From NCBI RefSeq assembly GCF_034355335.1, contig NZ_CP136422.1, positions 685,001 through 749,000 of the forward strand: DNA of 64,000 nt, written 5' to 3'. A program made the translations under genes and the position numbers. Below are positions 16,120 through 33,518 of this stretch, piece after piece. The notes beneath the pieces were generated by a model, which worked only from the letters and a program-made list of their open reading frames with translations, was not told where the DNA came from and ran no database searches. This DNA comes from Blautia coccoides. Lineage in GTDB: Bacteria > Bacillota > Clostridia > Lachnospirales > Lachnospiraceae. Within the stretch, counting starts at the first letter, position 1; each line of letters opens with the position of its first letter.

Positions 16120-16148
16120 TTGACAGAAATACTAGAGAATGATAAAAT
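16120..16148 (+). promoter_or_regulatory. near-consensus promoter upstream of the switch recombinase
   Basis: TTGACA, exactly 17 bases, TAAAAT. Its transcript would start near 16155, run over a 32-codon frame (16214-16312) and meet a terminator at 16381-16414 before the recombinase gene at 16578. Confidence 0.8.
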
Positions 16149-16213
16149 AATATTGATACCAATAAATGCAAGCAAAACGCCTAGACATTTGTACATACAA
16201 AGGGGTGGGAGCA

Positions 16214-16312: not shown

Positions 16313-16380
16313 GCACGATGGGTTTCTGTTATGTACATCGATACGCCATTGGAAGGGCAGAGGCGGGTATTTTCAGATTC

Positions 16381-16414
16381 AGCTGACTGGTATACTAACC
16401 GGTGAGCTTTTTTT
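16381..16414 (+). terminator. terminator in the leader of the switch recombinase
   Basis: AGCTGACTGGT pairs with ACCGGTGAGCT (one mismatch, one G-T) around a 6-base loop and is followed by seven T. It would cap transcription from the 16120 promoter unless antitermination occurs. The remaining 160 bases to the next gene show no other clear signal. Confidence 0.78.
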
Positions 16415-16577: not shown

Positions 16578-17426
16578 ATGGAACAGAAATTAATCGCTAC
16601 TAATGAGCTGTTGGAAGAATTTGTAAGATACTTACTGGAAGAGGAACGAAGCAAGGCTACAGTAGAAAAGTACGAAAGAGACGTGAAACATTTTATAAAA
16701 TATCTTGGGATTGATAACATTATAACAAAGGAGAGGGTACTAGAATATAAAGAATCAATACTCTTAGAGTATAGCGTTACAAGTGTTAATTCTATGCTGG
16801 CAGCTTTAAATCAATTCCTGATGTTTATAGGTGCATTTAATTTTAAAGTAAGGCGGATTAAAGTACAGAAGCCGGTTTTTCGAGAGGAAGAACGGGATCT
16901 GACAGAGGAAGAGTATAAAAATATGGTACAGAAGGCATATGAAGCGGGGAAAATACGGCTGGCCCTTATTATGGAAACCATCTGTTCTACAGGAATCCGC
17001 ATCAGTGAACTGCAATATTTCACGGTCAAAGCAGTAAAAACAGGACGGATTGAAATCCACAATAAAGGAAAGGTCAGAATCATTCTTGTACCGGAGCAGT
17101 TAAAAAAGAAGCTGCTTTGTTATATTGTTAAGATGAAAATAAAGAGTGGGAGTATATTTATCACATCTGGAGGCAAGGCAGTTGACCGAAGCAACATCTG
17201 GCGGGAGATGAAGAAGTTAGGATCTGAAATAAAGGTTTTGGAAAAGAAAATATTTCCCCATAACCTACGGCATCTTTTCGCAGTAATCTATTACAAAGCA
17301 TACAGAGATATCATAAGCCTTGCGGATATTCTGGGGCATTCCAGCGTGGAGACGACAAGGATATATACTGCTACCACTGGAGCAGTGTATAAGAAACGGC
17401 TAGAAAGTTTAAGCTTAGTCTTATAA
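16578..17426 (+). CDS. tyrosine recombinase, probable invertase of the adjacent promoter switch
   Basis: The compact 282-residue enzyme has a SAM-like core-binding domain (residues about 8-90). The catalytic domain carries Arg in GIRISEL, Lys in NKGKVR, His-x-x-Arg in HNLRHL, His in LGHSS and nucleophile Tyr in RIYTATT. It lacks the arm-binding domain of integrases, like XerD and the phase-variation invertases. Its stop codon is 7 bases from the left inverted repeat of an invertible segment. AAAGGAGAG precedes the ATG. It is unlike the element's tRNA integrase and probably acts only on the repeats beside it. Confidence 0.9.
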   Translation: MEQKLIATNELLEEFVRYLLEEERSKATVEKYERDVKHFIKYLGIDNIITKERVLEYKESILLEYSVTSVNSMLAALNQFLMFIGAFNFKVRRIKVQKPVFREEERDLTEEEYKNMVQKAYEAGKIRLALIMETICSTGIRISELQYFTVKAVKTGRIEIHNKGKVRIILVPEQLKKKLLCYIVKMKIKSGSIFITSGGKAVDRSNIWREMKKLGSEIKVLEKKIFPHNLRHLFAVIYYKAYRDIISLADILGHSSVETTRIYTATTGAVYKKRLESLSLVL

Positions 17427-17433
17427 TAAAAAA

Positions 17434-17458
17434 ACAACATAATTATAGTTATGTTGTA
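17434..17458. repeat. left inverted repeat (recombination site) of the promoter switch
   Basis: The 25-bp sequence has 9-bp palindromic arms, ACAACATAA and TTATGTTGT, around an asymmetric 6-bp core, TTATAG. It is the exact reverse complement of the site at 17828-17852. Palindromic arms with an asymmetric core are the design of tyrosine-recombinase crossover sites. Confidence 0.93.
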
Positions 17459-17489
17459 TGAATTGCTAAAACCATCTGTAATTGGAACT

Positions 17490-17518
17490 ATCTTATCATA
17501 TTTGACAAAAATCGTCAA
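17490..17518 (-). promoter_or_regulatory. invertible promoter, here facing leftward
   Basis: On the minus strand: TTGACG (17513-17518), exactly 17 bases, TAAGAT (17490-17495), with TG at the extended -10 position. Transcription would start near 17483, only about 25 bases inside the left repeat, so after inversion it would read across the repeat into the 17887 gene. In the present state it would run antisense into the recombinase gene. No comparable rightward promoter was seen near 17828. Confidence 0.8.
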
Positions 17519-17827
17519 TACATATTTTTCTATATTCTACTTACATTTCAGTGATTTTCTCTGATTTCCACAAACGTAATGAATAAAATCCATCATTTCA
17601 GAAACTTAGCAGGAATACCAGCTCATTATAGCAGGATTTAAAGGAAATTGAATACACGAAATACCGGACTTATGTGAAAGAGCGTACTCGAATTAAAACC
17701 TTAAGATTGTTTAAAAATCAAAAGGCTTTTTTTATGCCATCCTTTATTAATTTCGATACATCACGCTCGTATCGGTTATTTTTTTGAAATTTTATGGTGC
17801 GTGAATGGCTCTCCGCCGGGGTATGAG

Positions 17828-17852
17828 TACAACATAACTATAATTATGTTGT
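17828..17852. repeat. right inverted repeat (recombination site) of the promoter switch
   Basis: This 25-bp site is the perfect reverse complement of 17434-17458: arms ACAACATAA and TTATGTTGT with core CTATAA. It lies 34 bases upstream of the ATG of the first surface gene, so it would be part of the leader RNA in the ON state. Confidence 0.93.
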
Positions 17853-17886
17853 AGCTTAATTCTATATGAGGGAAAGGAGAACAGGC

Positions 17887-20800
17887 ATGAAGGAGTCTGG
17901 GAAGGAAAAGAAAAAGAATATAGGTTCCGTTTGCAAAAGAGGATTAGTAGGACTATTGACATTGTCAGTAATAGCTGGGAATGTTTCAGGAGCTTTTGCG
18001 GTGGAGGGTGGTTCTGAAAAAGCAGAAACTGTTTTACTTTATGAAAATACGGAGGCAGTAAATGAATTGCTTAATTATCTTCCCACTGAAGAGGCTGTGA
18101 AGCAATGGGATCTTAGTTTTCTGGCATTTAGAGATTTTCTTATGGAGAAGGGATACACAGATGTATTAGAAGCATTTGATGAAAATAACATGATTTATGT
18201 TTCGGAATACATAGAAAATACAGAGGAAGTTCCAATTTATATGTCTGGAACAAATGATATGGAAGAAATACCAGAGGGGGCTCAGCTTTATGATGGCAGT
18301 GGTGGCGAATTCTATATATGGCGCCTGTGTAAAGCACTGAGAACTTCTGAAGATGGCGAGAATGTCGAATATTACTGGGTCAGGACGCAAGATAAAATCA
18401 CATTAGAAAAAAATACAGAATCTAATGAGGATAAAGAAAACGGGCAGGTTAAAGAAAATCTGAACATTAATGATATTGATTCAAATATAGAGATGAGCGA
18501 GGAATCTTCGCAGGAAGGGATGGAGCAGGAGGAAGCGAAACAGGAATTACAAGGCGATGCTGCCGAGGGAGTAGAAGCTGAGCTTAGTGTAGCAGCTTCT
18601 GAATCTGGGGTGATAACGGTTTCAAACTTTGCTGAACTTAAAACAAGTATAGAAAATGCAACAAGTAATATTTCAATCAACGTCGTCGGTAACTTGAATG
18701 TAACTAGCACCATTAATGTAACGAAGTCTGTTACGGTTACATTGAATGGCGGTGGAACGTTGAACAGAACGGCTGCTTTTAACGGGAGTGTGTTCTATCT
18801 GGCTAACAAAGGATCAGAATTGGTTCTTGAGGATGTCACATTGTTTGGAAATTATCTTGACTCTTCTTCGGCGGCTATAAGAGTGTATGATGATGCGAAT
18901 TTAATTATGAAAGATGGCGGAATCATAAAGGGATTTTATACTGTAGCAGGTTCATATCTTGGTGGAGGAGTGCTCCTGGAAAATGGGGGAAGATTTTTTA
19001 TGGAAGGTGGCATTATTGAAGAATGTCGTGGTGGTGCAGGTGCTGCAGTACAAATATCTTCCTACGGTTATTTTGAAATGTCTGGAGGAAAAATTTGGCA
19101 CAATATGGATAATGATGAGGCTGTTGTTGATGTCTATGATGGAAGGGGCGGTAATTGGGTAATTACCGGTGGAGAAATTGTAGACAATTATGCTCAAGGA
19201 TTGGCTTGGGAGTGTGGCATATTGACACCAAGAGATAGAGCCACTTTTAACGGTACTAATACAGCCAGAGTATTTTCGATAGACGAATTGCATGAGATGT
19301 TGAGAAATGGCGTATTGAAAGGTGGCAAATTGCTTACAAACTATTCGTATGTAGGAGGAGCTGCAATACTTGCAAACAATTATATGAATACAGGGGTAAA
19401 TCCTTACGTTGCAAATATCAGATGGAATAACATGGCAGCTGGAATAAAGGGTAATGCAATTGTTGAGTCCGGATTGTCTGGTTATGAAAATGGATTTCAT
19501 GGAAAAACAACAATAGGCCCAATGAGCAATTTAGGAGAAATTGCTCATTGCGAAGGCTACACAGATCCGGTTTATACGGGAGGCCATGTTAATACAAATT
19601 GGCATGGACAAGATAATAGCAGAAATAATTTTGCTCGTATAGTGAACTCAGAATATAGAAGAGATTTACGTGGTTTTCAATCAGAAGTATATAAAAAGAA
19701 TAAGTCACAGATTCGTGTTGCAGAAAATTATAGAAGAGGAAATTCGGATTACACAACATGGATACCTGCGGCAGATGGTTTTCTGTATTGGATAGCTGAT
19801 ACACCGGGACAATTCTTTAATACGACAAAAGTTAAGTTAGTTGATCAGAATGGACGTGAATTGCCATACACAGGTGGTGCGGCAATTACTGAAGCAACTA
19901 CTGCGACCAGTGCGCCATCGGCCAGCGGAAATGCGTACAAAATTAATGAGAACACTATCGCATATGATAATGGAATCTGGGAAGCAAATACTGTAGCGGC
20001 AAAGACTTTTTACGCACCGGATTTATCTGCACATGGATTTGCGTTTACAGGGGAGTACAGCGTTGATGGTGGAAAAAAAATTGCTGGAAAAAATTACAAT
20101 GTGTCGGACTATAAGAATGCTCATGAGATTACCTTCTATTATAACGCAGATTATTATGAAATCAAATATGACGGTAATGGCGGCACAGTGGATCGAGAGA
20201 CTGATTCGGTTAGAATAGGAGAAAAAATAACACTGCCAAATGCAACTAAAAATGGGTATGGTTTTGCGGGATGGTATACCGAAAAAGAAGGTGGAGAAAA
20301 AATAGGTGATGCTGGTATGGAGCATACTCCACAGTCCGGGGGTACTTATTTTGCGCATTGGAATGCCAACGAATATACGGTGCGGTATGACATAAATAAA
20401 CCGGAAGGCGTTACTACAGAGGTAAAAGAACCAGATAGTGAATCCGTTACCCATGACAGTTCATATACGATAAAGGCACCAACAACTGAAATATTAGAAG
20501 CGTATGGAAAAACCTATAAATTTGCTGGATGGGATGCTGGAGAGGGGAATATTTACCAAGTAAACGATGAAATATCTATAAGTGGAGATGTAACACTGAA
20601 AGCAGTATGGGATGAAAGTATAAATGAGTATTCCATTAAGTATGAAATTAATAAACCACAGGATGTTTCAACAGAAGTGATGAATCCAAGTGATGCTAAA
20701 GTGATTCACGAAAAGACGTATACATTTAGTGCACCTGAAACTGAAAGATTGGAAGGTGAAGGGAAAATCTATATTTTCGGCGGATGGGAAGATGAGTCTG

Positions 20801-21714
20801 GGAACACTTATCAACCTAGTCAGGAGATAACTGTTGTCAGCAATATGACACTATCAGGTAAGTGGATTGCAAAATATAGTGTTACTTATCAGCTTAATGG
20901 GGGTAATGGTGCTTTGCCGCTAAACACCTTGTTTGAGGAAGGCGAAAACGTTACTACAGTAAAAGAGGATGCTGTAAAACCACCGCAAAATAAACTTTTT
21001 GATGGTTGGGAGAGTAATGTTCCAGTAACTGTAAATGGTGTAGAGACTACACGATTGGCAGGAGGAGATGTTTTTATAATGCCTGGTCAAAATGTAGTTT
21101 TAACGGCTGTTTGGAAAAACGACAGTGTTGATATAACATTTGAAGGCGTGGACGAGGGGCAGGATGCAGTTATAAAAGTAATCAACAAAGCAGGCGAGAC
21201 ATTGACGAAGAATTTCCCGAAGGTAATGGTAAATGGAGAAGAGGCGACGCCGGAGCAGTTGGAAAAGCTCACATATACATATGAACTATATACGAGAACT
21301 AGAATAAATGGATCTTATGTGTACGATTGGTCAGGAGAGGTATTGACAGAGGATAAAGATAAGGATGCTATTGAAACCTTGCCACTTGCTGTTGTAAAAC
21401 CGACCACTGAAAACTCAAGAATCGCAGCATCTACAAAAGTCGGTAAATCTGGCATTTTAAGGGTCACTTTAAGCTATGGAGAAACGGGAAAGAAAGCCAG
21501 CTGTATCGTTATTGCATCAGGGGATGTTGATTTGAATGCGTCGATTAGAAATAGCGATATTGAATTGCTGACCAATTACGTGATTGGCGAAGCGGCATTG
21601 GATAAATACTCCTATCAACCACTTATGGGAGATATGAATAGTGAAGCAGTAACAGGAAGAACCGTAATTACATGGCAAGATGTAGAATTGTTGGAAGCAT
21701 TTATTACTTATTAA
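17887..21714 (+). CDS. giant secreted surface protein with beta-helix, InlB-type repeats and dockerin-like end
   Basis: About 1275 residues; the ATG at 17887 follows AAAGGAGAAC. A signal peptide ends near AFA at residue 38. A Glu-rich stretch spans about 150-230. A pectate-lyase-like beta-helix region follows at about 230-480 (repeated LNGGGT, MKDGGIIKG, MEGGIIEE rungs). At about 755-1075 are four Listeria-Bacteroides (InlB-B) type repeats (YDGNGGTVDRE, GFAGWYTE, FAGWD, FGGWE). The last 65 residues hold two Asp/Asn segments (GDVDLNASIRNSDIELL, GDMNSEAV) resembling a divergent type I dockerin. No LPxTG signal is present. It leads the phase-variable operon and is probably an adhesin. Confidence 0.85.
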   Translation: MKESGKEKKKNIGSVCKRGLVGLLTLSVIAGNVSGAFAVEGGSEKAETVLLYENTEAVNELLNYLPTEEAVKQWDLSFLAFRDFLMEKGYTDVLEAFDENNMIYVSEYIENTEEVPIYMSGTNDMEEIPEGAQLYDGSGGEFYIWRLCKALRTSEDGENVEYYWVRTQDKITLEKNTESNEDKENGQVKENLNINDIDSNIEMSEESSQEGMEQEEAKQELQGDAAEGVEAELSVAASESGVITVSNFAELKTSIENATSNISINVVGNLNVTSTINVTKSVTVTLNGGGTLNRTAAFNGSVFYLANKGSELVLEDVTLFGNYLDSSSAAIRVYDDANLIMKDGGIIKGFYTVAGSYLGGGVLLENGGRFFMEGGIIEECRGGAGAAVQISSYGYFEMSGGKIWHNMDNDEAVVDVYDGRGGNWVITGGEIVDNYAQGLAWECGILTPRDRATFNGTNTARVFSIDELHEMLRNGVLKGGKLLTNYSYVGGAAILANNYMNTGVNPYVANIRWNNMAAGIKGNAIVESGLSGYENGFHGKTTIGPMSNLGEIAHCEGYTDPVYTGGHVNTNWHGQDNSRNNFARIVNSEYRRDLRGFQSEVYKKNKSQIRVAENYRRGNSDYTTWIPAADGFLYWIADTPGQFFNTTKVKLVDQNGRELPYTGGAAITEATTATSAPSASGNAYKINENTIAYDNGIWEANTVAAKTFYAPDLSAHGFAFTGEYSVDGGKKIAGKNYNVSDYKNAHEITFYYNADYYEIKYDGNGGTVDRETDSVRIGEKITLPNATKNGYGFAGWYTEKEGGEKIGDAGMEHTPQSGGTYFAHWNANEYTVRYDINKPEGVTTEVKEPDSESVTHDSSYTIKAPTTEILEAYGKTYKFAGWDAGEGNIYQVNDEISISGDVTLKAVWDESINEYSIKYEINKPQDVSTEVMNPSDAKVIHEKTYTFSAPETERLEGEGKIYIFGGWEDESGNTYQPSQEITVVSNMTLSGKWIAKYSVTYQLNGGNGALPLNTLFEEGENVTTVKEDAVKPPQNKLFDGWESNVPVTVNGVETTRLAGGDVFIMPGQNVVLTAVWKNDSVDITFEGVDEGQDAVIKVINKAGETLTKNFPKVMVNGEEATPEQLEKLTYTYELYTRTRINGSYVYDWSGEVLTEDKDKDAIETLPLAVVKPTTENSRIAASTKVGKSGILRVTLSYGETGKKASCIVIASGDVDLNASIRNSDIELLTNYVIGEAALDKYSYQPLMGDMNSEAVTGRTVITWQDVELLEAFITY

Positions 21715-21727
21715 GGCGGTGGTTACG

Positions 21728-24700
21728 ATGACGATTAAAAAGAAATCAATATTTAAAAAAATTTCAGCATTAATATTATGTGGTTTAGTGCTTCTGACAA
21801 CAGTTATGCAGGTGTTTGCGGTCAGTGAAGAAAAATATGTTCCTGAGGTTCCAGCAGATGAATATGGAATGGATTTTACTGTTTTCGATGAAACGATGAC
21901 ACCCGGAGAAAATGGGACATACAATGCAACTATGACAGCAAGAATGACAGGCAACAGTGACACTACCACAGGGATACAAGGTGGAGCAGTACAATGGTTT
22001 TGGTCAAGTAATCTTCCAACTCCTACTTTAAGTAATACACCAGAGCTGGGGGCTTTTAATCCAGTCACGGAAGATGCGGAAAAAAACATGAAAGAGCAAA
22101 GAGTTGTTTTCCGCTATTATAGGGACAGCGATCATGGAGCATATATACAAGGCGAAAACAGAACAGGTTATAAGACATTTAATCTTAATTTTGCGAATGT
22201 GAATGCAATCCCGGGGCAAGCCTTTGATGTTATTGTGCAAGATTATTACAGCCCTTCACTTGGTGAATCTACATTATTGCTATATCCATCAAACGGGGAA
22301 GAGGAAGTTCCGCTTGTCAGAGGCAATGTAACAGGAGGCCAGTTGCGTGCACCAGGTCGAACAATTACTTACAAGTCAAATGCTGAGGGAACAGAAACTT
22401 ATATTCAACAGTATATGACGGATGAAGAACTTACTGGAAAAAGAATATTGTCTTTAGAAGAAGTTGGGTTTACACCTGTTGAAGATAAGAATTTTTTGGG
22501 GTGGAGTATCTATTCAGATTCTATAAATCAAATTCAATATCGCCCGGGTATGTCATTGGAGGAAAAGGATGCAAATGGAAGATATAAGATCCAGAATGTA
22601 ACACTTTATCCGGTGTACCAAGGTGATGAACACCTGGATGGGAACTGGGTTGATTACATTGTATATGACACTGTTGCGGATACCGATCCGACATTAGCAA
22701 AAGGCCGCTATAATGCCACATTGAATGCCCGCTTGTTGACGGATATGGCAAAGCATGTAGAAATCACTGGAAGTGTTTTAGAGTGGTCATGGCCGTCAAG
22801 ACTCCCAGCTCCGGAACTGCAGAATATGCCAGAGAGTACAGATGACATAATTCCGGATTATCAATTGCCTGAGGATGATGGATTAGATTTAATAACTCAT
22901 CGCCGTGGATATAAATGGTATCGAAATCCTGATCATGGTGCGTTAACGCCGACAAATGATGGGACGGGATATGGTTATCATGAGTTTCAAATGTATTTTT
23001 ATAATTTTGCAGCAGAGCCTGGAGAAGTAATAAAAAATATTCGTTTGAGAGATTATTTCCATAAAGAACAGGAAATATCTATGACAAATGGTACGTCGCC
23101 TACAGGAGAAGAAACCATAACTGAAAGGTGCCATGTTATTACCGGAAGTATAACTATCCCAGGAAGGAAAATTATCTACAAAGCTGATAATTCTGAAAAT
23201 TCCAAGACCTACGAACAGGTATATTATTCGGATGCTGAGATGGCAGATGCTACCATACTAGAAAATGACCCAACACAGAATCCTAATCAGCCGCTTACGA
23301 AACCAAATTTTGATGCACCGGCTGGTAAAGAATTTGGTGGTTGGAGTGTTGAGGTAAACGCAGCAGAAGCTATGTATCAGCCAGGTGAAGCATTAACAGA
23401 ATTAAAAAATATGACTTTGTATCCTGTGTGGGTTGCAAAAAATTCTTACACAGTCACATACAATGGCAATGGAGGAACTCCAGAAAAAGATTTTGATGAG
23501 GTTTTGATTGGTGATGCATTGGGAGAACTTCCATCTGCTACACATCCAGAGGGTTATATATTTTTAGGATGGTATACAAAGGCGGAAGGCGGTAATAAGG
23601 TACAAGCTCCATTTACGCCTGTTGAAAACACGGAATTATACGCGCATTGGGAAACGACTTATAAGGTTTCATACCTGGCAGGAAATGGTTCTGGCGAGGT
23701 GAAAGATGAGAGCAGCCCATATAGAAAAGATGCTTATGTAATAGTTAAAAAACCTGATGGATTAAACTCCCCGGGCGAAGGGTGGATATTTGCTGGTTGG
23801 GAGAGCAATTTGGCTGTTACAGTAGGATCTTCTCAAAAGACTATATTGAATCCGGATGATATCTTCCGGATGCCGGAACAAGATATAACATTGACAGCTC
23901 TGTGGGATAATACGATTTCTGATGTATGTCCAATTGTTCTGGATTTAACAGAGGAAAGTTTAAAGAATAAGAAAGGCGAGGATATTGATACAGGCTTTGT
24001 TGCAAGCAGATCTGTTATTGCAGTGACAGGCGATGCGTTTAAAGGATGTAACGCTAATCACACACATGAGTTGATTATTAAGGGGACTACTACAAAGGAA
24101 GTGTCTATTGAAGGAAATAAAACAAAAGAATTCAATGTATTTGTCAATGGAGTGCAAGCAAAAATTTTAAACCTGGATTCTAATGGAACAGTTACTTTTG
24201 GCAGCGATGGAGCAACAATGACAAATCTGTTCAACAGCATGAGTGGCGAAGGACTTATATTTGGAAATGATGTTCATGAAGTCAAAATAAATGATGGCGT
24301 AACGGTTCTCTCTGTCAGTGCTGCAAAAGAGAAAAATCCAGTAACCGGAACAGACGGAAAAGTTAAAGTTCTTGACTTGACAATGCATGAGGTTTCAGAA
24401 GCAGATAAACAACTTGTGGTTAACGGAAAGGATATTTTATTACCATCAAATTATCTGAGAATTGTGATGTTAGACAATAATGAGGGTACTTGGCTCCAAG
24501 GAAAGATACAAGTGACTGATACAGATGGCAATGAATATGTCCGTGGCATAGCAGAGAATTCTGAGGATACCGAGTATATTGATTCAAATTATAGCGATCA
24601 AAATATATATGGCAATACGTTTGATCTAACAGGGACGGGCATAACTCCTTCGGATGCTGGAGAAAAGGGTATGTACGGGGAAGTACATATTCCAGTTAAG

Positions 24701-25279
24701 GTAAATCAGCTAAAAGTAACAGTACCCACAAGAATTGTATTTAATATTTATACAGATGGAATCAATGAAGCAAATCACGGCTTTATTGCCCCCACTGTTA
24801 AGTTGACAAATGAAAGTGAAACTTTCATGGATTCAATTAAATTACAAACATCATCTGGTTTAATCGTAAAAAATTATGGCGGAGAAAACCATAAGGCCAA
24901 TGTTGGATACATGGGAATTATAGAAGACGGTGTTTCTTCTTATACTTTGGAATCCTATGCGGATATGACTGTTGAACAGATGAACCAGTCTGTAACAAAG
25001 CCAGTCGTATGTATTGAAGCGGAAGCTAAGATTGATTCCAATCCGAGGATTAAATTAAAGCAAGAAGTTGATTATTCAACAGTTCCAGTATTTTGGTTCG
25101 CAGCTAAAAGAGGAGATACAGCCCTGCAGCTAAAGGTACCCAGTGATTATGAAAATGGATCAAATACTAAAAGATATTATCAAATCCCTAAGGATGTGAT
25201 AAACGATCGGGATGGTAATACCATTCTTTACGGATATCACAAAATGCGTCTTTCTTTCGCAATGGGGGACGCAGAATAA
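21728..25279 (+). CDS. second giant secreted surface protein with tandem novel domain and InlB-type repeat
   Basis: About 1183 residues; the ATG at 21728 follows AAGGCGGTGG, 13 bases after the previous stop. A signal peptide ends near VFA at residue 31. Two copies of an unrecognised domain follow (about residues 45-180 and 305-450); both carry YNAT, W-x-W-x-S-x-LP-x-P, Y-R-x-x-DHGA and GTGY or TGY motifs. A single InlB-B type repeat (YNGNGGTPEKD, FLGWYTK) lies at about 575-645. The C-terminal part contains VTVPTRIVF and ends in a beta motif (MRLSFAMGDA) that recalls WxL-protein ends with the Trp replaced. No sorting signal. Probably a surface partner of the preceding protein. Confidence 0.8.
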   Translation: MTIKKKSIFKKISALILCGLVLLTTVMQVFAVSEEKYVPEVPADEYGMDFTVFDETMTPGENGTYNATMTARMTGNSDTTTGIQGGAVQWFWSSNLPTPTLSNTPELGAFNPVTEDAEKNMKEQRVVFRYYRDSDHGAYIQGENRTGYKTFNLNFANVNAIPGQAFDVIVQDYYSPSLGESTLLLYPSNGEEEVPLVRGNVTGGQLRAPGRTITYKSNAEGTETYIQQYMTDEELTGKRILSLEEVGFTPVEDKNFLGWSIYSDSINQIQYRPGMSLEEKDANGRYKIQNVTLYPVYQGDEHLDGNWVDYIVYDTVADTDPTLAKGRYNATLNARLLTDMAKHVEITGSVLEWSWPSRLPAPELQNMPESTDDIIPDYQLPEDDGLDLITHRRGYKWYRNPDHGALTPTNDGTGYGYHEFQMYFYNFAAEPGEVIKNIRLRDYFHKEQEISMTNGTSPTGEETITERCHVITGSITIPGRKIIYKADNSENSKTYEQVYYSDAEMADATILENDPTQNPNQPLTKPNFDAPAGKEFGGWSVEVNAAEAMYQPGEALTELKNMTLYPVWVAKNSYTVTYNGNGGTPEKDFDEVLIGDALGELPSATHPEGYIFLGWYTKAEGGNKVQAPFTPVENTELYAHWETTYKVSYLAGNGSGEVKDESSPYRKDAYVIVKKPDGLNSPGEGWIFAGWESNLAVTVGSSQKTILNPDDIFRMPEQDITLTALWDNTISDVCPIVLDLTEESLKNKKGEDIDTGFVASRSVIAVTGDAFKGCNANHTHELIIKGTTTKEVSIEGNKTKEFNVFVNGVQAKILNLDSNGTVTFGSDGATMTNLFNSMSGEGLIFGNDVHEVKINDGVTVLSVSAAKEKNPVTGTDGKVKVLDLTMHEVSEADKQLVVNGKDILLPSNYLRIVMLDNNEGTWLQGKIQVTDTDGNEYVRGIAENSEDTEYIDSNYSDQNIYGNTFDLTGTGITPSDAGEKGMYGEVHIPVKVNQLKVTVPTRIVFNIYTDGINEANHGFIAPTVKLTNESETFMDSIKLQTSSGLIVKNYGGENHKANVGYMGIIEDGVSSYTLESYADMTVEQMNQSVTKPVVCIEAEAKIDSNPRIKLKQEVDYSTVPVFWFAAKRGDTALQLKVPSDYENGSNTKRYYQIPKDVINDRDGNTILYGYHKMRLSFAMGDAE

Positions 25280-25344
25280 GACAGGATTAAGTGCATAATG
25301 CATTAATCATAAAGCCAATACAAAATCAAACAGGAGGAAAAAAA

Positions 25345-26283
25345 ATGAGGAGATTAAAAAAATTTGCAGCATTAGGATTAAGCTGCGCCATGATTTCTTC
25401 AATGGCAGTAGGAGTTTCAGCTGCTGAAAACAAAATTGAGGATAAGGCAGCAGGTAAGGCAACAGTGGAATCAAAAGCAGACATTGACGTGGATGGATAC
25501 ATTACAAAGGATGCAGTGATTGATACAAGCGGAAATCCGATTGATCCTAGCTTGCCAACGTATTCAGAGTCTCATATGGCATCAACAGTAGTGCCGACTC
25601 AGACTGTATCAAACGGTCAGACAATCACGACAGATGTTCCAACTATGACCGCTACCAGTAACCTTCCGTCTTCATGGGGAGATGTTGATGCGGATTCTAC
25701 AAATCTGTTAATTACAGCACCCACTAAATTATCGTTTTTTGCTGCCGGTGATGGAGAGGACGCAAATATCCAGCTGACTTCAGAAGGACTTAGCGTAAAG
25801 GGAAAAATATACAACCAGTCCTGTTATGTCTCCCCAGACGGTGATGTAATTCCAAAAGAAGTTGCTGTAACTGGTCAGCGTAATGATCCTACAACTAAAG
25901 AATTTGAACTCGTGGCTGCTGATGGGACATTCTCTGAAGGAACGAATGCTGTAAAAGGTGTACATTTACAGGTCAGAGGTATGAGCAAGGATGATGATTC
26001 ATCTGCAATTGCAGGTTCCGACAGAAGATATGACTTTGCAAAACTTAATGCAGCAACTGATCTTGGCTATTTAGCAGCAGGCACACGCAGTATTGCGGGT
26101 AATGAGCAGGCGGTGAACCCATCTATGACAGAATTATCATTTACAGATGCAGATGGAAAAGCGACTGGAGTATCTACACAGTTTGCCGGTAACTATGATG
26201 ATGGGCAGAAGCTTCACACATCTTATAAACTTTCTTTAACTTATAGTGTGGATGGTGCAAGAAGCAATGGGCTCTCATACTAA
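25345..26283 (+). CDS. small secreted pilin-like/WxL-like surface protein
   Basis: About 312 residues; AGGAGGAAAA precedes the ATG at 25345. A signal peptide ends near VSAA (about residue 25). A short DIDVDGYI motif follows, shared with the next gene's product (EIDVEGHVE). The middle has ITAPTKLSFF, parallel to VTVPTRIVF of the upstream giant. The C-terminus YKLSLTYSVDGA is reminiscent of the second WxL motif with Trp changed to Tyr. There is no sortase signal. Its size, abundance-type ribosome site and place suggest the major subunit of the surface structure. Function is inferred. Confidence 0.65.
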   Translation: MRRLKKFAALGLSCAMISSMAVGVSAAENKIEDKAAGKATVESKADIDVDGYITKDAVIDTSGNPIDPSLPTYSESHMASTVVPTQTVSNGQTITTDVPTMTATSNLPSSWGDVDADSTNLLITAPTKLSFFAAGDGEDANIQLTSEGLSVKGKIYNQSCYVSPDGDVIPKEVAVTGQRNDPTTKEFELVAADGTFSEGTNAVKGVHLQVRGMSKDDDSSAIAGSDRRYDFAKLNAATDLGYLAAGTRSIAGNEQAVNPSMTELSFTDADGKATGVSTQFAGNYDDGQKLHTSYKLSLTYSVDGARSNGLSY

Positions 26284-26360
26284 AAACAAGTAGAGATTAA
26301 GTACATAGATGTATTGGCTGATCAAATTAAAGTTTTAAACGGGGCGGGGGTTACTCCGCT

Positions 26361-26406
26361 CCCTTGGAAAAGGGTTGAAATAGTAGTTTCAATATTTTTC
26401 CAAGGG
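26361..26406 (+). promoter_or_regulatory. long hairpin A of a candidate attenuator
   Basis: CCCTTGGAAAA pairs perfectly with TTTTCCAAGGG, and inside it TTGAAA pairs with TTTCAA around TAGTAG. It lies between the small secreted protein gene and the AKTGD protein gene. Its right arm is also the left arm of hairpin B, so the two cannot form together. Confidence 0.75.
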
Positions 26407-26436
26407 ATTTTCATGTAGATGAAACCCTTGATTTTT
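26401..26436 (+). terminator. hairpin B, alternative terminator-like structure
   Basis: CAAGGG pairs with CCCTTG and TTTCAT with ATGAAA around GTAG, followed by ATTTTTAT. It competes with hairpin A for 26401-26406. The pair could lower or tune expression of the genes behind the abundant subunit. Confidence 0.6.
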
Positions 26437-26472
26437 ATGGAGACGAATGAAATTAGAAAGAGAGGGTAAGAG

Positions 26473-26898
26473 ATGCAATACACAAAAACAGCAAAAAAAA
26501 GAAGATATAAGTTTATCGTTAAAAACTTGTGTCTAATGATGCTGACGCTCTTTTGGCTTTTTGCAATGCAGAAGTCAGTGCTTGCTGAAACTAATATTTC
26601 GTCCATGTCAAGTGGAAGAGCTGAAATGCAAAGAGAAGAGGAAATTGATGTAGAAGGACATGTGGAAAATGACGAATCATTAAAGAATTCAAGTCAGGCA
26701 ACCAATAGTTCGGGCGCTACCTTAAACAGTACGAAACCGTCCACGAATAATGTTGGAAATGGGTTAAACGATAAAGTATCAGCTAATGCCAAGACGGGCG
26801 ACTTTTTCAGCGGAAAAAACCTGGTGATTTTCCTGTTAGCAGCCGGCGGCATAATTGTGATCATTAATTTGAGAAAAGGTAAAAATGCTGAAAGGTAA
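26473..26898 (+). CDS. small sortase-anchored protein with AKTGD sorting signal
   Basis: The 141-residue protein has a signal peptide (cleaved near VLAE, about residue 38). An EIDVEGHVE motif follows, shared with the preceding gene product, then a Ser/Asn/Thr-rich spacer. The C-terminus has NAKTGDFFSG, a hydrophobic segment (LVIFLLAAGGIIVII) and a basic tail. This is a variant cell-wall sorting signal, and the class B sortase seven kilobases downstream is the natural processing enzyme. It may be the wall anchor for the secreted proteins encoded upstream. Confidence 0.75.
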   Translation: MQYTKTAKKRRYKFIVKNLCLMMLTLFWLFAMQKSVLAETNISSMSSGRAEMQREEEIDVEGHVENDESLKNSSQATNSSGATLNSTKPSTNNVGNGLNDKVSANAKTGDFFSGKNLVIFLLAAGGIIVIINLRKGKNAER

Positions 26899-26970
26899 GT
26901 CTTATAAAAGGGTGTGATTCAGCAACGAGAGTTACATCCTTTTTTGTCGCAAATAAATTGGTGGAAAGGT

Positions 26971-27588
26971 ATGAGTATGGAAAAGAATTCAGTATTAGAA
27001 GAACTGGAGAAGGAGTTCGAGCAATCCGTAAAGTCTGGAGATAATATAAATAAAACCAGGAAACGTTCTAAGATTACTAGTAATCAGGGGTTTTTGTTAT
27101 GGATTAAGCAAAGAAGAAAAGTTTTGTCGGGTGTTCTCATCTTGCTGGTTATTGCTTTCTCAGTATTGGCGGGCAGTCATTTTCTAAAAGGAAAGAATCC
27201 TAGTGAAATAAAAAATGGAATGCCTGCATTTCTTACAGAATCTGAAAAAGAAGATTGGAATAACAAGGAAGTGGACTTCAATGAAATATATATATACGTT
27301 AATACAAATCTGAACATAGAGGATGGAAACAAGATTCAACTACGTTTGGCTAATCCTCCGTATTGTGCATATCCTATCAAGATTTCCATTCAAGATGAGG
27401 CAAAAGGGGAAGTCTATTATACTTCTGGAATTTTAAAACCCGGAGAGAGCCTGGAGGAAGTGGAACTATCTAAAGTGCCAGAACAGTCGGGGAATTATCC
27501 AGTTACCATAGTATATACGTTTTATGACAGCAAGTCGAAAGATACAGTAGTAGGTGAGCATGCGGTAAGTGCAGAACTGATTAAGTAG
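26971..27588 (+). CDS. single-pass membrane protein, family A (first of three paralogues)
   Basis: About 205 residues; the ATG at 26971 follows GGTGGAAAGG. A cytoplasmic, charged N-terminus (about 50 residues) leads to one membrane segment (VLSGVLILLVIAFSVLAG) and an outer beta-rich domain with PGESLEEVELSK and YPVTIVYTFYD. The same pattern recurs in the products at 27608 and 39945. I know no named family for it. It may form a membrane-anchored scaffold or chaperone for the secreted subunits. Confidence 0.7.
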   Translation: MSMEKNSVLEELEKEFEQSVKSGDNINKTRKRSKITSNQGFLLWIKQRRKVLSGVLILLVIAFSVLAGSHFLKGKNPSEIKNGMPAFLTESEKEDWNNKEVDFNEIYIYVNTNLNIEDGNKIQLRLANPPYCAYPIKISIQDEAKGEVYYTSGILKPGESLEEVELSKVPEQSGNYPVTIVYTFYDSKSKDTVVGEHAVSAELIK

Positions 27589-27607
27589 AAAAGCAGGAGG
27601 GATAAAA

Positions 27608-28207
27608 ATGACATTAGAAGAAATAAATCAGGCTTATGAAGAGGAAATTCAAAAGATAGATGAGCCGGAAGTGCAGGAGTTAGAAAAGAAAAGCAAGAAA
27701 AAGTGGATATTCCTTGTGTTGGCTGTAGTAGTGTTAGGAGCTGGAGCCGCTGCGATGAATCATAAATATAACAGTTCTTCTTTGCCAGATGAGGAGGAAA
27801 TTGCAGCCGCAGAAGGGGAATTGATCCGTGAAATTCCGGAAGGGATGAAGGAAGGTGAGTATGGGGACTTGCTTCAGCAGCAGATAGAAGATTCTATGTT
27901 TACCATAAATGTGCGCTCTACACCGGTATTTACGAATGGAGTATCTAAAGGTGTAATTGATATTGTAAATAATCCAAGTAATAGTTTTCCATGCAAGGTC
28001 GTTCTTGAGTTGGATGATTCAGAGGAGGAAATATATCGCTGTGATGACCTGATTTATCCAGGGCAATATATCAGTGAGATTAAACTGACTAAAAGCCTTG
28101 AGAAGGGGGCATATCCTGCAACATTGACCTATTTTGTATACGACGAGGATGGGAAGGAAAGTATTGGGCTTATTAAGGCAGGAATTACAATTGCGATACA
28201 AAATTAG
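27608..28207 (+). CDS. single-pass membrane protein, family A (second paralogue)
   Basis: The 199-residue protein has an acidic cytoplasmic start, one membrane segment (WIFLVLAVVVLGAGAAAM, about residues 36-53) and an outer domain with VNNPSNSFPCKVVLEL, PGQYISEIKLTK and YPATLTYFVYD. It follows the first paralogue by 20 bases with an AGGAGGG ribosome site. Its 3' end overlaps the signal peptidase gene, implying coupled translation. Confidence 0.7.
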   Translation: MTLEEINQAYEEEIQKIDEPEVQELEKKSKKKWIFLVLAVVVLGAGAAAMNHKYNSSSLPDEEEIAAAEGELIREIPEGMKEGEYGDLLQQQIEDSMFTINVRSTPVFTNGVSKGVIDIVNNPSNSFPCKVVLELDDSEEEIYRCDDLIYPGQYISEIKLTKSLEKGAYPATLTYFVYDEDGKESIGLIKAGITIAIQN

Positions 28208-28745
28208 TAAGTCAGGAATAAAATGTTGGGTTGAACGATTGCTGTTTACAGTTTTGCAGATGCTGGTGTTGATATTTTCCATAATTATCATCAATGGTGC
28301 AGTTTGTGGATTTTCAGTGGTGCATGGTGAAAGTATGCAGCCAACTCTTTTGGAAGGAGATATTCTTCTGTGCATTAAGCTTTTTTATCAGCCAGCCAGA
28401 GGTGATATTGTAATCTGCCGAACAGGAAAAGGTTATGAAAATGAAATGGTAAAAAGGGTAATCGGAATGCCAGGAGATGAAATTTTCATAGATAGTAATA
28501 CGGGAATTTTGTATATCAACGGACACCCGTTGGAGGAACCCTACTGTAAGGAGAAGACATTCCAGATTGGTGATAATGTATATCCAGTGATTGTACCAAA
28601 AGAACAGTATTTTGTCCTAGGTGATAACCGGGAAGTATCTATGGATAGCCGTTACAGTGAAATAGGAACAATTGATTCAAAAAAGATAGACGGACATGTG
28701 GTATTTAGGGCTAGTTTGGTAAAAAAAGAAAAATACAATGAGTGA
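28191..28745 (+). CDS. type I signal peptidase dedicated to the surface operon
   Basis: About 184 residues from a TTG at 28191 that has AAGGCAGGA 7 bases upstream; upstream in-frame starts lack a ribosome site. One N-terminal membrane segment (LFTVLQMLVLIFSIIII) is followed by the catalytic Ser48 in HGESMQPTL and Lys88 in MVKRVIGMPGDE, then the conserved VLGDNREVSMDSR. It cleaves signal peptides outside the membrane. Being inside an operon of secreted proteins, it probably serves them, as operon-borne SipA-like peptidases do in pilus islands. Confidence 0.9.
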   Translation: MRYKISKSGIKCWVERLLFTVLQMLVLIFSIIIINGAVCGFSVVHGESMQPTLLEGDILLCIKLFYQPARGDIVICRTGKGYENEMVKRVIGMPGDEIFIDSNTGILYINGHPLEEPYCKEKTFQIGDNVYPVIVPKEQYFVLGDNREVSMDSRYSEIGTIDSKKIDGHVVFRASLVKKEKYNE

Positions 28746-28756
28746 GGAAATTTGAA

Positions 28757-31519
28757 ATGGAGTCAAAAGATAAAACGAGTTTTAAGATAAAATTCAGGGA
28801 TTGGATCAGTGAACATAAAGTTAGTCTGATGGCTTTTTTTGGCGTAAGCACCGTATTGCTCATAATTGCGATGGCCAGGGGATATGCGCCATTTGGTGAC
28901 AGTTCCTTACTCATGAATGATGCTATCCACCAGTACTATCCTTTGTTTGGACAGTATCGTGACAGGATTTTAAACGGAGATGGAATATTTTATTCTGCGG
29001 GAGGAGGGCTTGGGTTTAATTTTTATGCATTGTGGACTTATTATCTTTCCTCGCCTTTGAATCTGCTGATTTTGCTATTTCCATCTGGAGAGATGGATGC
29101 TGCTATGGATATGCTTATTATGCTGAAAACTGCACTTGCAGCTGGAACTTTCGCGTACTATTTGGAGTGGAAAGTTGCCAAGAGAAGAGTAAGTATTCTG
29201 CCGTTTGCCTTTGGATATGCACTGTCAACATTCATGATTGGCTATGGATATAACATTATGTGGCTGGACAGCATCATGCTGCTTCCTATTTTACTGATGG
29301 GGCTTGAGAAATTGATCCAACAAGGAAAATGGAAACTCTATACACTGGCTCTTGCATTGTCCTTATGGTGTAGCTTTTATATTGGTTTCATGGTCTGTTT
29401 ATTTGCCGTTATTTGGTTTTTATTTCAAACGCATTCTTCTTACCTGGCATTCTTAAAACGAGGAATACAGTTTGCTGGAGCATCGCTCTTAGGAGCAGGA
29501 CTGGCGTGTGTAGTGCTCCTGCCAGCGTATATGGGGATTGTCAAGACTACAGGCAGTTCATCCTTCCCGGACTTTGAGTGGATGGCAAAATTTTCTGAGA
29601 TATTTGCTGGCAAGGAAGGTGGCATCTTTGCGTTTTCGGACCCGTTATCCATAAACAACCAAGCAGCATATCCAGCCAACCTTTATTGTGGAACTTTTGT
29701 TATCGGACTGGTTTTTTTATATTTTTTATTAAAAGATATTGCACCCATCCAAAAAATAAAAGCGGCATGGCTGATAATCTTCCTGGTGATTAGTCTGAAT
29801 AACCAAGGATTGAACTATATTTGGCATGGTTTCCATTATCAGGTGGGAATTCCTAATCGGTTTGTCTTTTTGCTTCATTTCTTCTTGCTTCTTTTGGCAT
29901 GTCAGGCATTTCAGCGGCTAAAGGATTGCAGGAGGTGGCAATTGGTTTGTGTAGGCGCCGGTATGCTTCTGATTTACAGCACCCTCTATTTTTTACAGAA
30001 TGATAATGTGACTACACAAATGCTTATTTCTACATTATCAGCGGTTATAATTTACTCTTGTTTTTGGATGCTTTATCGGAAGGAAGAGGGAAAGCTGTGG
30101 AGGAATCTTTTATTGTTTTCCATGTGTTTAGAAATAAGCACCAGCGCATATTACGGATATGTAAAGCAGGGAGGCGTCATCTCAGATGATTTTTACCGTA
30201 GCAAAGAGGCCATTCAAGAAGCAGCGGATAAACTGCCAAATGACCAGTATCGTGCAGAATTGTCTAATCCTACGGTGAAAAATGAAGGAGCGGCATATAA
30301 TCTTCGAGGCTGTGGCATATTTAGCTCTACGACCAATATTAATACCATTGCGTTGCTAAAATCAATTGGATTTTCTGCCAGCAGTAATTCTTATTCTCCT
30401 GCGGGCGGGACACCGGTTTTAAATACACTTTTTGGAATTAAAAACTATTTGATAATACAAAACGATGCCAATCGTCTGGATCATAGTTACAACGAGACTG
30501 ATGAAGGAGAAGAAGTTAAAGTATATGAAAACAAAAAAGTGCTGCCTATTGGATATTTATGCGAAAAAGGAGTAAATGACTGGTCATCTTTAACTAAGGA
30601 TTTTTTCCAAAACCAAATGGAACTAATTCAGTTAATGACTGGTAAAGAATACCGAATATTCACAGAACAAAAATTTGCGTTAAAGGAAGTAAATGATATC
30701 GAGGTAAAATCACTTGACGAAAAACAACAATTCAGTTATCTCTCGCCAGAAGGAATTAGAAATGATCATGTTGTATTTGAGGCTGTGGCCGAAGAGGACG
30801 AAGACTTATATATCAGACTGCAAGCTGCTTATTCAAACAAGATTACAGTTATGGTCAATGAAGTGGCAATTGCCTATAAAGACCTAAGTTCTTCTTTTTA
30901 TCATGTGGGAAATGTAAATAAGGGTGACCGGGTTACTATTCAAGTCGGTATGCAGGAGGATTGTCCTACGTACGGGAAAATCAGCATGTCTATGTATGCG
31001 TTTGATCAGGAGGAAATGGACCGCGCGTATGAGGATTTATCGTCTGGCAGCATGGATGTCACGGAATGGAAGGAAGGATATATTGCGGGCAGAGTAAAAG
31101 CCAACAATGGGAGGAATGTGCTTTTTACAACAGTTCCGTATGATAAAGGCTGGTCTGTGTATGTTGATGGTAAAAAGCAAAAGACGGAAACCGTGCAAGG
31201 GGGATTTCTAAAGATAGATTTAGAGGATGGAGAACATAAAATTATTTTTAAATACGCAGTTCCCGGTCTGAAGATTGGATTTGCAGTAAGTTTGGTAAGC
31301 TTGGCAATATTACTGATTTTTGTATCTAATGCAAAAAAAGGATGGATTGCAGCAAGAGAGGAAAGGAAGGGCGAGCGCAATGCGGAACAAAAAGAATCTA
31401 TTCTCGGAAATGAAGATATTCCGGAAAAGGCTGCTTCGACTGGCAGCATTGATGCTTGCAGTTATGTTGGTCAGCAGGTGTCTGATACAAGTGAATACAA
31501 GCCAGATACAGTGGATTGA
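28757..31519 (+). CDS. YfhO-family multi-pass membrane protein
   Basis: About 920 residues (ATG 28757; GTG 28742 is also possible). Roughly a dozen membrane segments are followed by an outer region and a C-terminal membrane helix. The conserved start of the family is visible (GDSSLLMNDAIHQYYPLFG, then GGGLGFNFYALWTYYLSSP). YfhO proteins are GT-C-like and help glycosylate cell-wall polymers such as lipoteichoic acid. In this operon it likely adds sugars to the exported proteins or envelope polymer, together with the GtrA/GT2/GT39-like genes downstream. Confidence 0.85.
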   Translation: MESKDKTSFKIKFRDWISEHKVSLMAFFGVSTVLLIIAMARGYAPFGDSSLLMNDAIHQYYPLFGQYRDRILNGDGIFYSAGGGLGFNFYALWTYYLSSPLNLLILLFPSGEMDAAMDMLIMLKTALAAGTFAYYLEWKVAKRRVSILPFAFGYALSTFMIGYGYNIMWLDSIMLLPILLMGLEKLIQQGKWKLYTLALALSLWCSFYIGFMVCLFAVIWFLFQTHSSYLAFLKRGIQFAGASLLGAGLACVVLLPAYMGIVKTTGSSSFPDFEWMAKFSEIFAGKEGGIFAFSDPLSINNQAAYPANLYCGTFVIGLVFLYFLLKDIAPIQKIKAAWLIIFLVISLNNQGLNYIWHGFHYQVGIPNRFVFLLHFFLLLLACQAFQRLKDCRRWQLVCVGAGMLLIYSTLYFLQNDNVTTQMLISTLSAVIIYSCFWMLYRKEEGKLWRNLLLFSMCLEISTSAYYGYVKQGGVISDDFYRSKEAIQEAADKLPNDQYRAELSNPTVKNEGAAYNLRGCGIFSSTTNINTIALLKSIGFSASSNSYSPAGGTPVLNTLFGIKNYLIIQNDANRLDHSYNETDEGEEVKVYENKKVLPIGYLCEKGVNDWSSLTKDFFQNQMELIQLMTGKEYRIFTEQKFALKEVNDIEVKSLDEKQQFSYLSPEGIRNDHVVFEAVAEEDEDLYIRLQAAYSNKITVMVNEVAIAYKDLSSSFYHVGNVNKGDRVTIQVGMQEDCPTYGKISMSMYAFDQEEMDRAYEDLSSGSMDVTEWKEGYIAGRVKANNGRNVLFTTVPYDKGWSVYVDGKKQKTETVQGGFLKIDLEDGEHKIIFKYAVPGLKIGFAVSLVSLAILLIFVSNAKKGWIAAREERKGERNAEQKESILGNEDIPEKAASTGSIDACSYVGQQVSDTSEYKPDTVD

Positions 31520-33518
31520 TGGAAATTACACGGATGTTACTCTGGATCAGTCAGGTAGCTTGATTCTTGTAGTAGATGCAAAAACGAACCTTGCCGGTGC
31601 GCTTAATCTGGAAGGCGAAGTTGTAATTCCAATAGAGAACAACATCTTTGATCCTTGGGATGGGGGTCTTATTACTGGGCTTAGACAGGAAGGGGGACTA
31701 TTTTGGGTTATTAAAAAAAATAAGGTAGGAATCGTAAATCGGAAGAATGAAACGGTAATTCCACAGGAGTATGGATATTTGAAGCGGGCCCAGGAAGATC
31801 AGTTTATCGCTGGGACAGGACAAATATCAAATGTAGTTATGGACGGCGGTTCTTACACGCATAAATCGTATGGTGTGATTTCGGAATCGGGAGAGACTGT
31901 GATTCCCTTGGACTATGATTCCGTCAAATTGCAGGATGATGGGAAATATGTTGCTGTAGCTGAGGAAAATACAAGGCTGATTACCCGTACTTTTTTTGCT
32001 AATGGGAATTTAGATAAGGAAGAAATAGAAGAAAAGACATCAGAAGAGTTGCCAGCAGAAGAGGAAGAACCCTCGGAGGAGATAAGTGAAAAATCAAATT
32101 CGGATGTGCCTGAAGTACCAGTGTCAGTCAAACAGGATGAGCAGGAACCACAGATACCAGATGATGCTCCGGCTAGAGAAGACAGCGGGATTGAAGATTA
32201 CGAAGGCCCAGGAGGCAGTTATGAAGTTGTCAATTTTTATGAAGTCGGGGATAACACAAAACTGCATTTGGAAGGTGATGTCTGTACCTTGGAAGATGAG
32301 CAGGGAAATGTACTGACTACTTTTGAAGGCAGTCGTGTACAGGCAAACATGCCCAAATTTGCAAAACAGGCGAAGCTGGTCATAGATCAGGGTGAGAAAT
32401 TTTTCCGTATTTATAATGCCGGAACAGGTTCCATCCTCTGCGATGTATCCAAAGAATCAGAGTGTATTTTGACAGACAGTCTGATTGCATATGAACATGC
32501 AGGTTCTGAATACATAGTTAAAAATTTTCATAACACGGAAATATTTCGTGTGAAGAAAGGAGATAAAGATAAGTTTCTTAATTCACCCAATGAGCGGGCA
32601 AGGTTTGTTTTTCAAGATTCCTATTTTGTCTATCAGGCGGATGATGGAAGAACATTGATCACAAACACAGGTGTAGTGGTTTCGCAGGGGCTCACAAGTA
32701 TCTCATTCAACGATGAGAATAATAACAAAGAGAGTGCTGAGGAAAAGATTTTTATCTGTGAAAAGGATGGAAAATATGGTGCTTTCAATGCAGCTGGAGA
32801 TAAGATTTTAGATTTTCTGTACGAGAATATTGAATTTTTTAATGGTCATGTTAGCGCGCTTCGTGTCACTGAAAGCCGGAATCATGTAGGAATTGTTGAT
32901 TATAGAGGTCAGGTAATAATTCCTTTGGAGTATGAGAGCGTTGGTTACGGAAGTCATATAGAGGAAGTGGACAGTAGTTCAATTGTTGAATATGAACTGC
33001 TGAACAGCAACACAAGCAAATATTATGGAAAAACAGGAGATAACATTTACTATCTGGACAATGAGGGAAATATTGCTGAGGAAGTACACTATGTAAGGAT
33101 AGAGGAACGAGGGAAGGATTTAAATGACTACATAGCGATAGGCAGGTCTGCGGAATCTCCCCGGGAATACAGGACAACAGGTAATCTCTTAATTATGGAC
33201 AACACTTATTCTGGCAGTTGGCAATTTGGTAGAAGTGTTATTTACACAAATGTGGAAAAGAATAAGATGCAGTTCCTGTTTGTGGATCAGACAAATGAGA
33301 AAATTGGAGTTTATGAATATTACTTCGGAAAATTCACATTAATGGGATTCCAACATATTTTTTGGTATGTCTGGATGGTAAGCAGTCGCATTTTTATGCT
33401 CCTTTTAGCTGGTATCTTAATCAGCATACTTCCGTATGAAAGAATTTCGGACTGGTTTTATTTTTGGAGGCTGGATGCCATAAAGAAAAGAAAAAAGAAA
33501 GGAAATCAAAATGGATGA
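31380..33518 (+). CDS. membrane-anchored WG-repeat protein
   Basis: About 712 residues; the ATG at 31380 follows AGGAAGGGCG and overlaps the YfhO gene by 140 bases. An N-terminal membrane segment (LLRLAALMLAVMLVS) is followed by WG-type beta repeats (GGLFWVIKKNKVGIVNRK, GYKYGAF-like units, VIPLEYESV, VIPLDYDSV). An acidic Glu/Pro insert lies at about 215-290, and a C-terminal membrane helix and basic tail close the protein. WG repeats are thought to form propeller-like binding platforms. It would present a large outer domain held at both ends in the membrane. Confidence 0.75.
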   Translation: MRNKKNLFSEMKIFRKRLLRLAALMLAVMLVSRCLIQVNTSQIQWIDGNYTDVTLDQSGSLILVVDAKTNLAGALNLEGEVVIPIENNIFDPWDGGLITGLRQEGGLFWVIKKNKVGIVNRKNETVIPQEYGYLKRAQEDQFIAGTGQISNVVMDGGSYTHKSYGVISESGETVIPLDYDSVKLQDDGKYVAVAEENTRLITRTFFANGNLDKEEIEEKTSEELPAEEEEPSEEISEKSNSDVPEVPVSVKQDEQEPQIPDDAPAREDSGIEDYEGPGGSYEVVNFYEVGDNTKLHLEGDVCTLEDEQGNVLTTFEGSRVQANMPKFAKQAKLVIDQGEKFFRIYNAGTGSILCDVSKESECILTDSLIAYEHAGSEYIVKNFHNTEIFRVKKGDKDKFLNSPNERARFVFQDSYFVYQADDGRTLITNTGVVVSQGLTSISFNDENNNKESAEEKIFICEKDGKYGAFNAAGDKILDFLYENIEFFNGHVSALRVTESRNHVGIVDYRGQVIIPLEYESVGYGSHIEEVDSSSIVEYELLNSNTSKYYGKTGDNIYYLDNEGNIAEEVHYVRIEERGKDLNDYIAIGRSAESPREYRTTGNLLIMDNTYSGSWQFGRSVIYTNVEKNKMQFLFVDQTNEKIGVYEYYFGKFTLMGFQHIFWYVWMVSSRIFMLLLAGILISILPYERISDWFYFWRLDAIKKRKKKGNQNG

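Follow-up and report, generated by a model that had tools for sequence, protein, structure and literature searches.

Here, we report that a 64,000-nucleotide stretch of the Blautia coccoides genome (contig NZ_CP136422.1, positions 685,001 to 749,000; hereafter the window, whose own numbering is used throughout) very probably holds a cis-acting promoter-inversion switch (inverton) with a dedicated tyrosine recombinase. A first-pass annotation, made from the letters alone, had proposed a complete switch of this kind, and homologues support the proposal well: the segment between the recombination sites is reversed in four independent cases among relatives, one of them weak, and a pair of sites with matching cores (6/6) follows the recombinase gene in 112 of the 129 loci that have at least 600 base pairs (bp) of downstream sequence. 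The parts of the switch are as follows.

16578..17426, + strand: tyrosine recombinase (invertase) of 282 amino acids, with a SAM-like N-domain and a Phage_integrase domain (Pfam, phmmer)
17434..17458, + strand: left recombination site, ACAACATAA-TTATAG-TTATGTTGT plus A
17459..17827, no strand: putative invertible segment, 369 bp between the repeats and bounded by the sites
17490..17518, − strand: candidate promoter TTGACG-17-TAAGAT with an extended −10 (TG before the −10), facing the recombinase (OFF)
17828..17852, − strand: right recombination site, an exact inverted copy of the left site
17887..21714, + strand: first operon gene, a secreted-type protein with List_Bact (InlB-type) repeats (open reading frame (ORF) extendable to 17866; signal peptide by eye)

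The left and right repeats are exact reverse complements across 25 bp, start ∼395 bp apart, and are each laid out as a 9-bp arm, a 6-bp core, and a second 9-bp arm plus one base. The arms (ACAACATAA and TTATGTTGT) and the asymmetric TTATAG core stand as first described. Within the 6.10-Mb single-contig genome, the pair is unique in a search at up to 3 mismatches, and none of 200 dinucleotide shuffles of the surrounding 5-kb region attained its inverted-repeat score of 25 (maximum 16). The recombinase gene ends 7 bp before the left repeat (stop codon ending at 17426, repeat starting at 17434), again in agreement with the first-pass annotation, and the locus has the short segment with flanking inverted repeats by which promoter invertons are recognized. 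In the mechanism that we propose, the recombinase would bind the four 9-bp arms of the two 24-bp sites, and strand exchange across the 6-bp core, which would require a match between the sites, would invert the 369-bp segment. In the assembled state, the promoter would fire back toward the end of the recombinase gene, leaving the operon without a promoter from the segment (OFF). Inversion would bring the −10 to 17791-17796, facing the operon, and the same promoter, now ∼90 bp upstream of the ATG at 17887, would drive the surface-protein operon (ON).

The same site architecture recurs across the recombinase family. The DNA downstream of 154 recombinase loci was searched for two matches to ACNACATAA-N6-TTATGTNGT, with the core not used and a threshold of at least 10 matches per site among 16 positions (14 or more of them scored), or, at the stricter setting, at least 12 on both sites. 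A pair was found in 127 of the 154 loci, and in 114 of those the inverted cores are identical (6/6). At the stricter setting, the cores agree in 109 of 110 pairs; the single miss (L025) was a wrong pick, and an ungapped repeat scan gives this locus a repeat with a matching core. In controls at threshold 12, a matched pair was present in 110 of the 154 near-recombinase stretches, as compared to 4 pairs with none core-matched in 706,926 bp of flanking DNA and 0.2 pairs per set, again none core-matched, in 20 shuffled sets. The 114 loci carry 74 distinct cores, none of which is palindromic, as would be expected if inversion has a fixed polarity. When the recombinases were clustered at 70% identity, the 114 loci collapsed to 77 clusters, and one member per cluster still gave 57 distinct cores (a core and its reverse complement counted as one). 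Two double-counted loci (L091/L113 and L016/L137) stay in these counts, such that 112 of the 114 are unique, and they leave the picture of the site rule unchanged.

With respect to scope, the survey covered 299 genomes and scored at most 8 candidates per genome. Left out of the counts were L028, at 32% identity, and the own genome's more distant recombinases L035-L041, which had no core-matched pair among the pairs printed by the control scan. Two candidate places, G042:C69 and G131:C1, are not in the 154, and L048 (31% identity) is included. L029-L034, L045, L046, L051, L052, L055-L058, and L059-L086 were superseded by longer fetches of the same places. Two further observations concern the sites themselves. 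The outer arms differ more between the left and right sites than the inner arms do (150 versus 75 mismatches, summed over nine positions each in 114 loci). The idea that distinct cores serve to avoid cross-talk within a genome was rejected, with 5 core collisions in 105 pairs as compared to 1.26 expected; one of the five (G285) stems from a locus that entered the counts twice, so that 4 of 104 remain.

Signs of inversion come from comparing relatives with each other. The segments of 29 locus pairs align over at least half their length, and in five of these pairs the segment is reversed; L149/L158 and L156/L158 represent one shared event, which leaves four independent cases. Two of the 24 unreversed pairs are double counts. 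Both flanks run in the same direction in four of the five reversed pairs, and in the fifth, L013/L103, the upstream flank alone aligns. Global alignment scores for the five were 86.5, 103, 109, 89.5, and 4.5 with one segment flipped and −15.5, 2.5, 12, −19.5, and −43.5 in the same orientation, the flipped alignment being better and above the shuffle maximum in every pair. For the two pairs with L158 as a member, the alignment without a flip likewise scores slightly above shuffles, probably because L158 and L156 hold an inner palindrome (earlier fetches L052 and L058). The promoter call is reversed as well in two of the five pairs, those with calls for both members (L047 + and L050 −; L013 + and L103 −). 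In addition, the contig breaks off less than about 300 bp beyond the recombinase gene in 19 of 131 loci, whereas a break within the same distance upstream is seen in 5 of 131 (p 0.004); such an excess would be expected if both orientations were encountered during assembly.

Candidate promoters occupy a preferred place within these segments. A promoter of score at least 10 is found in 78 of the 114 segments, where shuffles give 29.1 (at most 39 over 30 sets). At 35-85 bp from a segment end, a zone that was fixed after a first look at the data, there are 72, where shuffles give 5.8 (at most 10). It is this family-wide position, and no other ground, that makes the window promoter credible. The first-pass annotation had the motif right (TTGACG, 17 bp, TAAGAT, extended −10); its distance of ∼25 bp from the left repeat needs correction, as the −10 ends 31 bp inside. 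Of 72 oriented segments, 55 have the promoter directed at the recombinase and 17 have it directed at the operon, and with one segment per cluster the split is 33 versus 14 (p 0.008); from these counts, the predicted OFF state dominates among assemblies. Orientation could be called for three of the six copies in the own genome, the window's included, and all three are OFF. The OFF assignment of the window switch is well supported and agrees with the earlier reading: the minus-strand match at 17518-17490 points to the recombinase, such that the candidate promoter faces away from the surface-protein operon. Separately, one genome (G159) holds eight recombinase copies with matched pairs, seven of which share the promoter TTGCAA-16-TATAAT at nearly the same place.

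The recombinase is, as first annotated, a compact tyrosine recombinase encoded by a complete 282-codon ORF. It matches PF00589 (1.2e-22) and PF02899 (3.8e-9), and phmmer aligns it over its full length with XerA (5hxy, 1.8e-22). The R, the HxxRH, and the C-terminal H...Y region are conserved in this alignment, which places the protein among the Phage_integrase tyrosine recombinases, and we take the aligned R, HxxRH, H, and Y positions to be the catalytic residues. The NCBIfam XerA, XerC, and XerD models match well below their curated cut-offs, so the protein is a Xer-like relative rather than a Xer protein proper. Six close copies, the window's included, are present in the own genome (E ≤1e-69). 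All six have a matched site pair, although for L034/L151 the ungapped repeat scan had found none. Counting the own genome, 60 of the 299 genomes of the family have a match at E 1e-50 or better, and 8 of the 20 genomes of the genus have one at 1e-30; relatives are present in named genomes such as Hespellia, Merdimonas, and Lachnoclostridium. A search of viral contigs returned no relatives, relatives in phage records reach 38% identity at best (best 10 of 54 matches listed), and those in plasmid records reach 50% (best 10 of 178 matches listed). A genome-wide scan for the site at up to 2 mismatches found 10 places, nine in the pairs of the six copies and one lone, as compared to 5 for a reversed control pattern; the enzyme may act on more distant sites.

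Several observations weigh against the interpretation as a working promoter inverton. The arms search gave no matched pair in 17 of the 129 loci with enough sequence, although for two of these, L022 and L025, repeats are present by the ungapped repeat scan. The reversal in L013/L103 is weak, as it scores low and lacks a match downstream, and no orientation call exists for L149, L156, and L158, the flipped trio. The excess of contig ends could have other causes. No promoter scoring at least 10 is present in 36 of the 114 segments, and the window promoter by itself is not above chance (8 matches in a regional scan, 8.7 expected in shuffles). Lastly, searches of plasmids, viral contigs, and the 19 further genomes of the genus found neither an inverted nor a second copy of the window locus; the locus is single copy among the sequences searched, and inversion was not seen at this locus itself.

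It is worth considering that control might be exerted after transcription start, as in the RecV-dependent cwpV and flg switches, with an upstream promoter reading into the segment and internal terminators deciding the outcome. Terminator-like hairpins are present in 44 of the 72 oriented segments (25 forward and 31 reverse, as compared to 9.3 and 11 in shuffles), and the window has two weak ones:

17699..17733, + strand (opposite to the promoter): weak terminator-like hairpin with seven T; centroid −5.3 kcal/mol, z score −0.34, not above shuffles
17754..17785, + strand: second weak terminator-like hairpin (CGATAC...GTATCG, then a T-run); −6.1 kcal/mol

However, the hairpins lack a clear strand bias, as would suit an insulator, and promoters at a fixed place inside the segments far exceed shuffles. 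We therefore consider post-initiation control unlikely. The idea that one-way terminators inside the segment act as a general OFF insulator is unsupported, the hairpins being enriched on both strands with no clear bias.

The single fixed state in the assembly and the lack of an inverted copy would also fit a former switch that is now locked OFF, with sites and recombinase that persist and no longer act. Decay would be expected to leave mismatches, whereas the two sites agree at all 25 positions, core included, the recombinase gene has an uninterrupted reading frame, and its product retains the conserved active-site region in the alignment with XerA, which makes a locked switch improbable, somewhat more so than post-initiation control. 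Far less credible is a role of the repeats outside inversion, as a bidirectional terminator or as protein-binding palindromes: each site is indeed palindromic and on the minus strand a T-run follows the left one, but the pairs stand head to head with identical asymmetric cores (109/110) and homologous segments are reversed between unreversed flanks. Equally remote is a recombinase that mainly integrates or resolves a mobile element with the repeats as its attachment (att) sites, for although the upstream DNA holds an integrase-type element with ParM-like and primase-type genes, this element encodes a 499-amino acid integrase of its own, the window sites are inverted, and the 114 matched pairs have their sites head to head (the only arrangement in which cores were compared).

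A promoter inverton with its own recombinase is thus the reading that we retain, and to it the family comparison adds a possible second role for the left site, as a terminator of the OFF transcript.

17427..17458, − strand: left site read leftwards, a hairpin followed by seven T, possible terminator of the OFF transcript (sequence, fold, and family T-run asymmetry)

In its context, the window hairpin is weak (−7.5 kcal/mol, z score −1.4). Across the family, at least six of the eight bases reading outward are T at the left site in 43 of 114 loci and at the right site in 5 of 114, and with one locus per cluster the T-run is found in 25 of 77 versus 3 of 77. The mean outward T count is 4.2 at the left site and 2.2 at the right site, with 2.6 in a control stretch 32-40 bp further left, and the T-rich stretch is limited to about the first ten bases beyond the site. 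The left-site T-run is absent in 71 of the 114 loci. Together, these data are suggestive of terminator activity at the left site. We tentatively put forward, as an idea that we do not yet favor, that the loci form a portable cassette family with one 24-bp architecture, in which conserved 9-bp arms enclose a free core that is identical within each locus, and the left site serves as a one-way terminator. If this is true, then the OFF transcript would stop at the left site before the recombinase gene, the ON transcript would pass the right site, and a single DNA element would be both a recombination site and a terminator that reads orientation.

The genes that would be controlled lie directly beyond the right site. 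The likely start of the first operon gene is the ATG at 17887, which is preceded by AAAGGAGAA, and the operon appears to continue as follows.

21719..28745, + strand: second large InlB-repeat protein, four smaller ORFs, and a signal peptidase I (28134-28745) (Pfam/NCBIfam)
28742..33518, + strand: YfhO-family membrane protein and WG-repeat protein, probably in the same operon judging by the spacing

The four smaller ORFs have no Pfam match and look secreted or membrane-bound by eye. A predicted structure of the protein encoded at 25291 had a predicted local distance difference test score of 31 and was useless for fold search, and the 1186-amino acid operon protein had no relative at E 1e-20 in 60 other genomes. 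Family-wide, 108 loci extend at least 900 bp past the site, and 98 of them have their first downstream ORF on the same strand, the ORF being an automatic choice that sometimes picked spurious ORFs. From the 114 loci, 92 downstream proteins were taken, of which 90 were scanned; repeated proteins and loci without a near ORF of 150 codons were skipped. These 90 proteins matched 73 Pfam families, 25 of which were listed. Among those listed are SpaA pilin-type folds, CpsB/CapC, signal peptidase, BTAD activators, choline-binding repeats, InlB-type repeats, and Rrf2, each with 2 to 5 members.

Further features surround the switch. Between the GntR gene and the recombinase (16120-16410) are a good promoter (TTGACA-17-TAAAAT), a 32-codon ORF at ∼16214 that, judged by eye, has a plausible ribosome site, and, at ∼16381-16408 upstream of the recombinase, a strong terminator hairpin (−14.7 kcal/mol, z score −4.9); this interval could be a small gene or a leader of the recombinase. 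Upstream of it, positions 3190-16002 are probably an integrative element, with a tRNA-Leu followed by the integrase (3313-4812), a YqaJ-type recombinase, a helicase-like ORF (by eye), a primase-type zinc finger, a ParM-like actin, and the GntR regulator. A search for att repeats, confined to the window, found no further 16-bp stretch identical to part of 3191-3330. Switches may travel with ParM-bearing elements, since a second switch of the own genome (L151; G000:C1:1577857 and 1587402) also lies within 10 kb of a ParM-like gene. Elsewhere in the window, SpaA/FctA-type pilin genes and a sortase are found at 47202-52575, downstream of a catalase gene.

Taken together, these loci form a well-bounded switch family with a simple site rule that allows switches to be located, and their likely state predicted, from sequence. 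Genes for surface proteins, capsule-type enzymes, and regulators share this kind of switch, and the combination of many locus-specific cores with near-constant arms offers natural material for studying how tyrosine recombinases check core homology.

Among known systems, Xer sites of the dif type have two recombinase-binding arms around a 6-bp core, and Xer resolves dimers between direct sites. The window sites are similar in having arms around a 6-bp core and differ in being inverted and paired per locus. The Escherichia coli fim switch (FimB/FimE, fimS) shares a promoter-bearing invertible segment, recombinase genes in the locus, and control of a surface structure. The fim system has two recombinases and other repeats, whereas the window has one XerA-like enzyme directly beside the site. 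The first-pass annotation had likened the locus to RecV-type switches, a label that finds no support here. According to PMC2784873 and PMC5386303, recV of Clostridioides difficile lies away from cwpV, the cwpV and flg repeats are 21 bp, and the cwpV and flg segments have no internal promoter, control being exerted after transcription start. In contrast, each of the six genomic close copies adjoins its own site pair. The window segment holds a promoter-like sequence of a kind enriched family-wide. The flg repeat given there, AAGTT(A/G)CTAT(A/T)TTACAAAAAA, is different by eye from ACAACATAA-TTATAG-TTATGTTGT, so a RecV-like 21-bp repeat is not what the window has.

The closest published match, by description, is inverton group 139 with invertase group 35 (PMC11892184, Microbiome 2025). 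In the sections of that paper available, 32 of 33 group 139 members are from Clostridia and nearly all are near a group 35 tyrosine recombinase, the two examples with coordinates span 255-257 bp, one example shifts orientation between passages, and another also differs between mucin-attached and free cells. Those sections do not mention the 9-6-9 site, core matching, or the terminator feature, and among the matches listed, PMC10939037 and PMC5903667 included, we noticed no paper, as far as their accessible text goes, with the site rule or the left-site terminator feature. The promoter-inversion switch of the window is thus of a kind already known and one member of a widespread family, to which our analysis, working from genome sequences, adds a single site architecture with many locus-specific cores, an apparent OFF bias among assemblies, and a left site that is often terminator-like.

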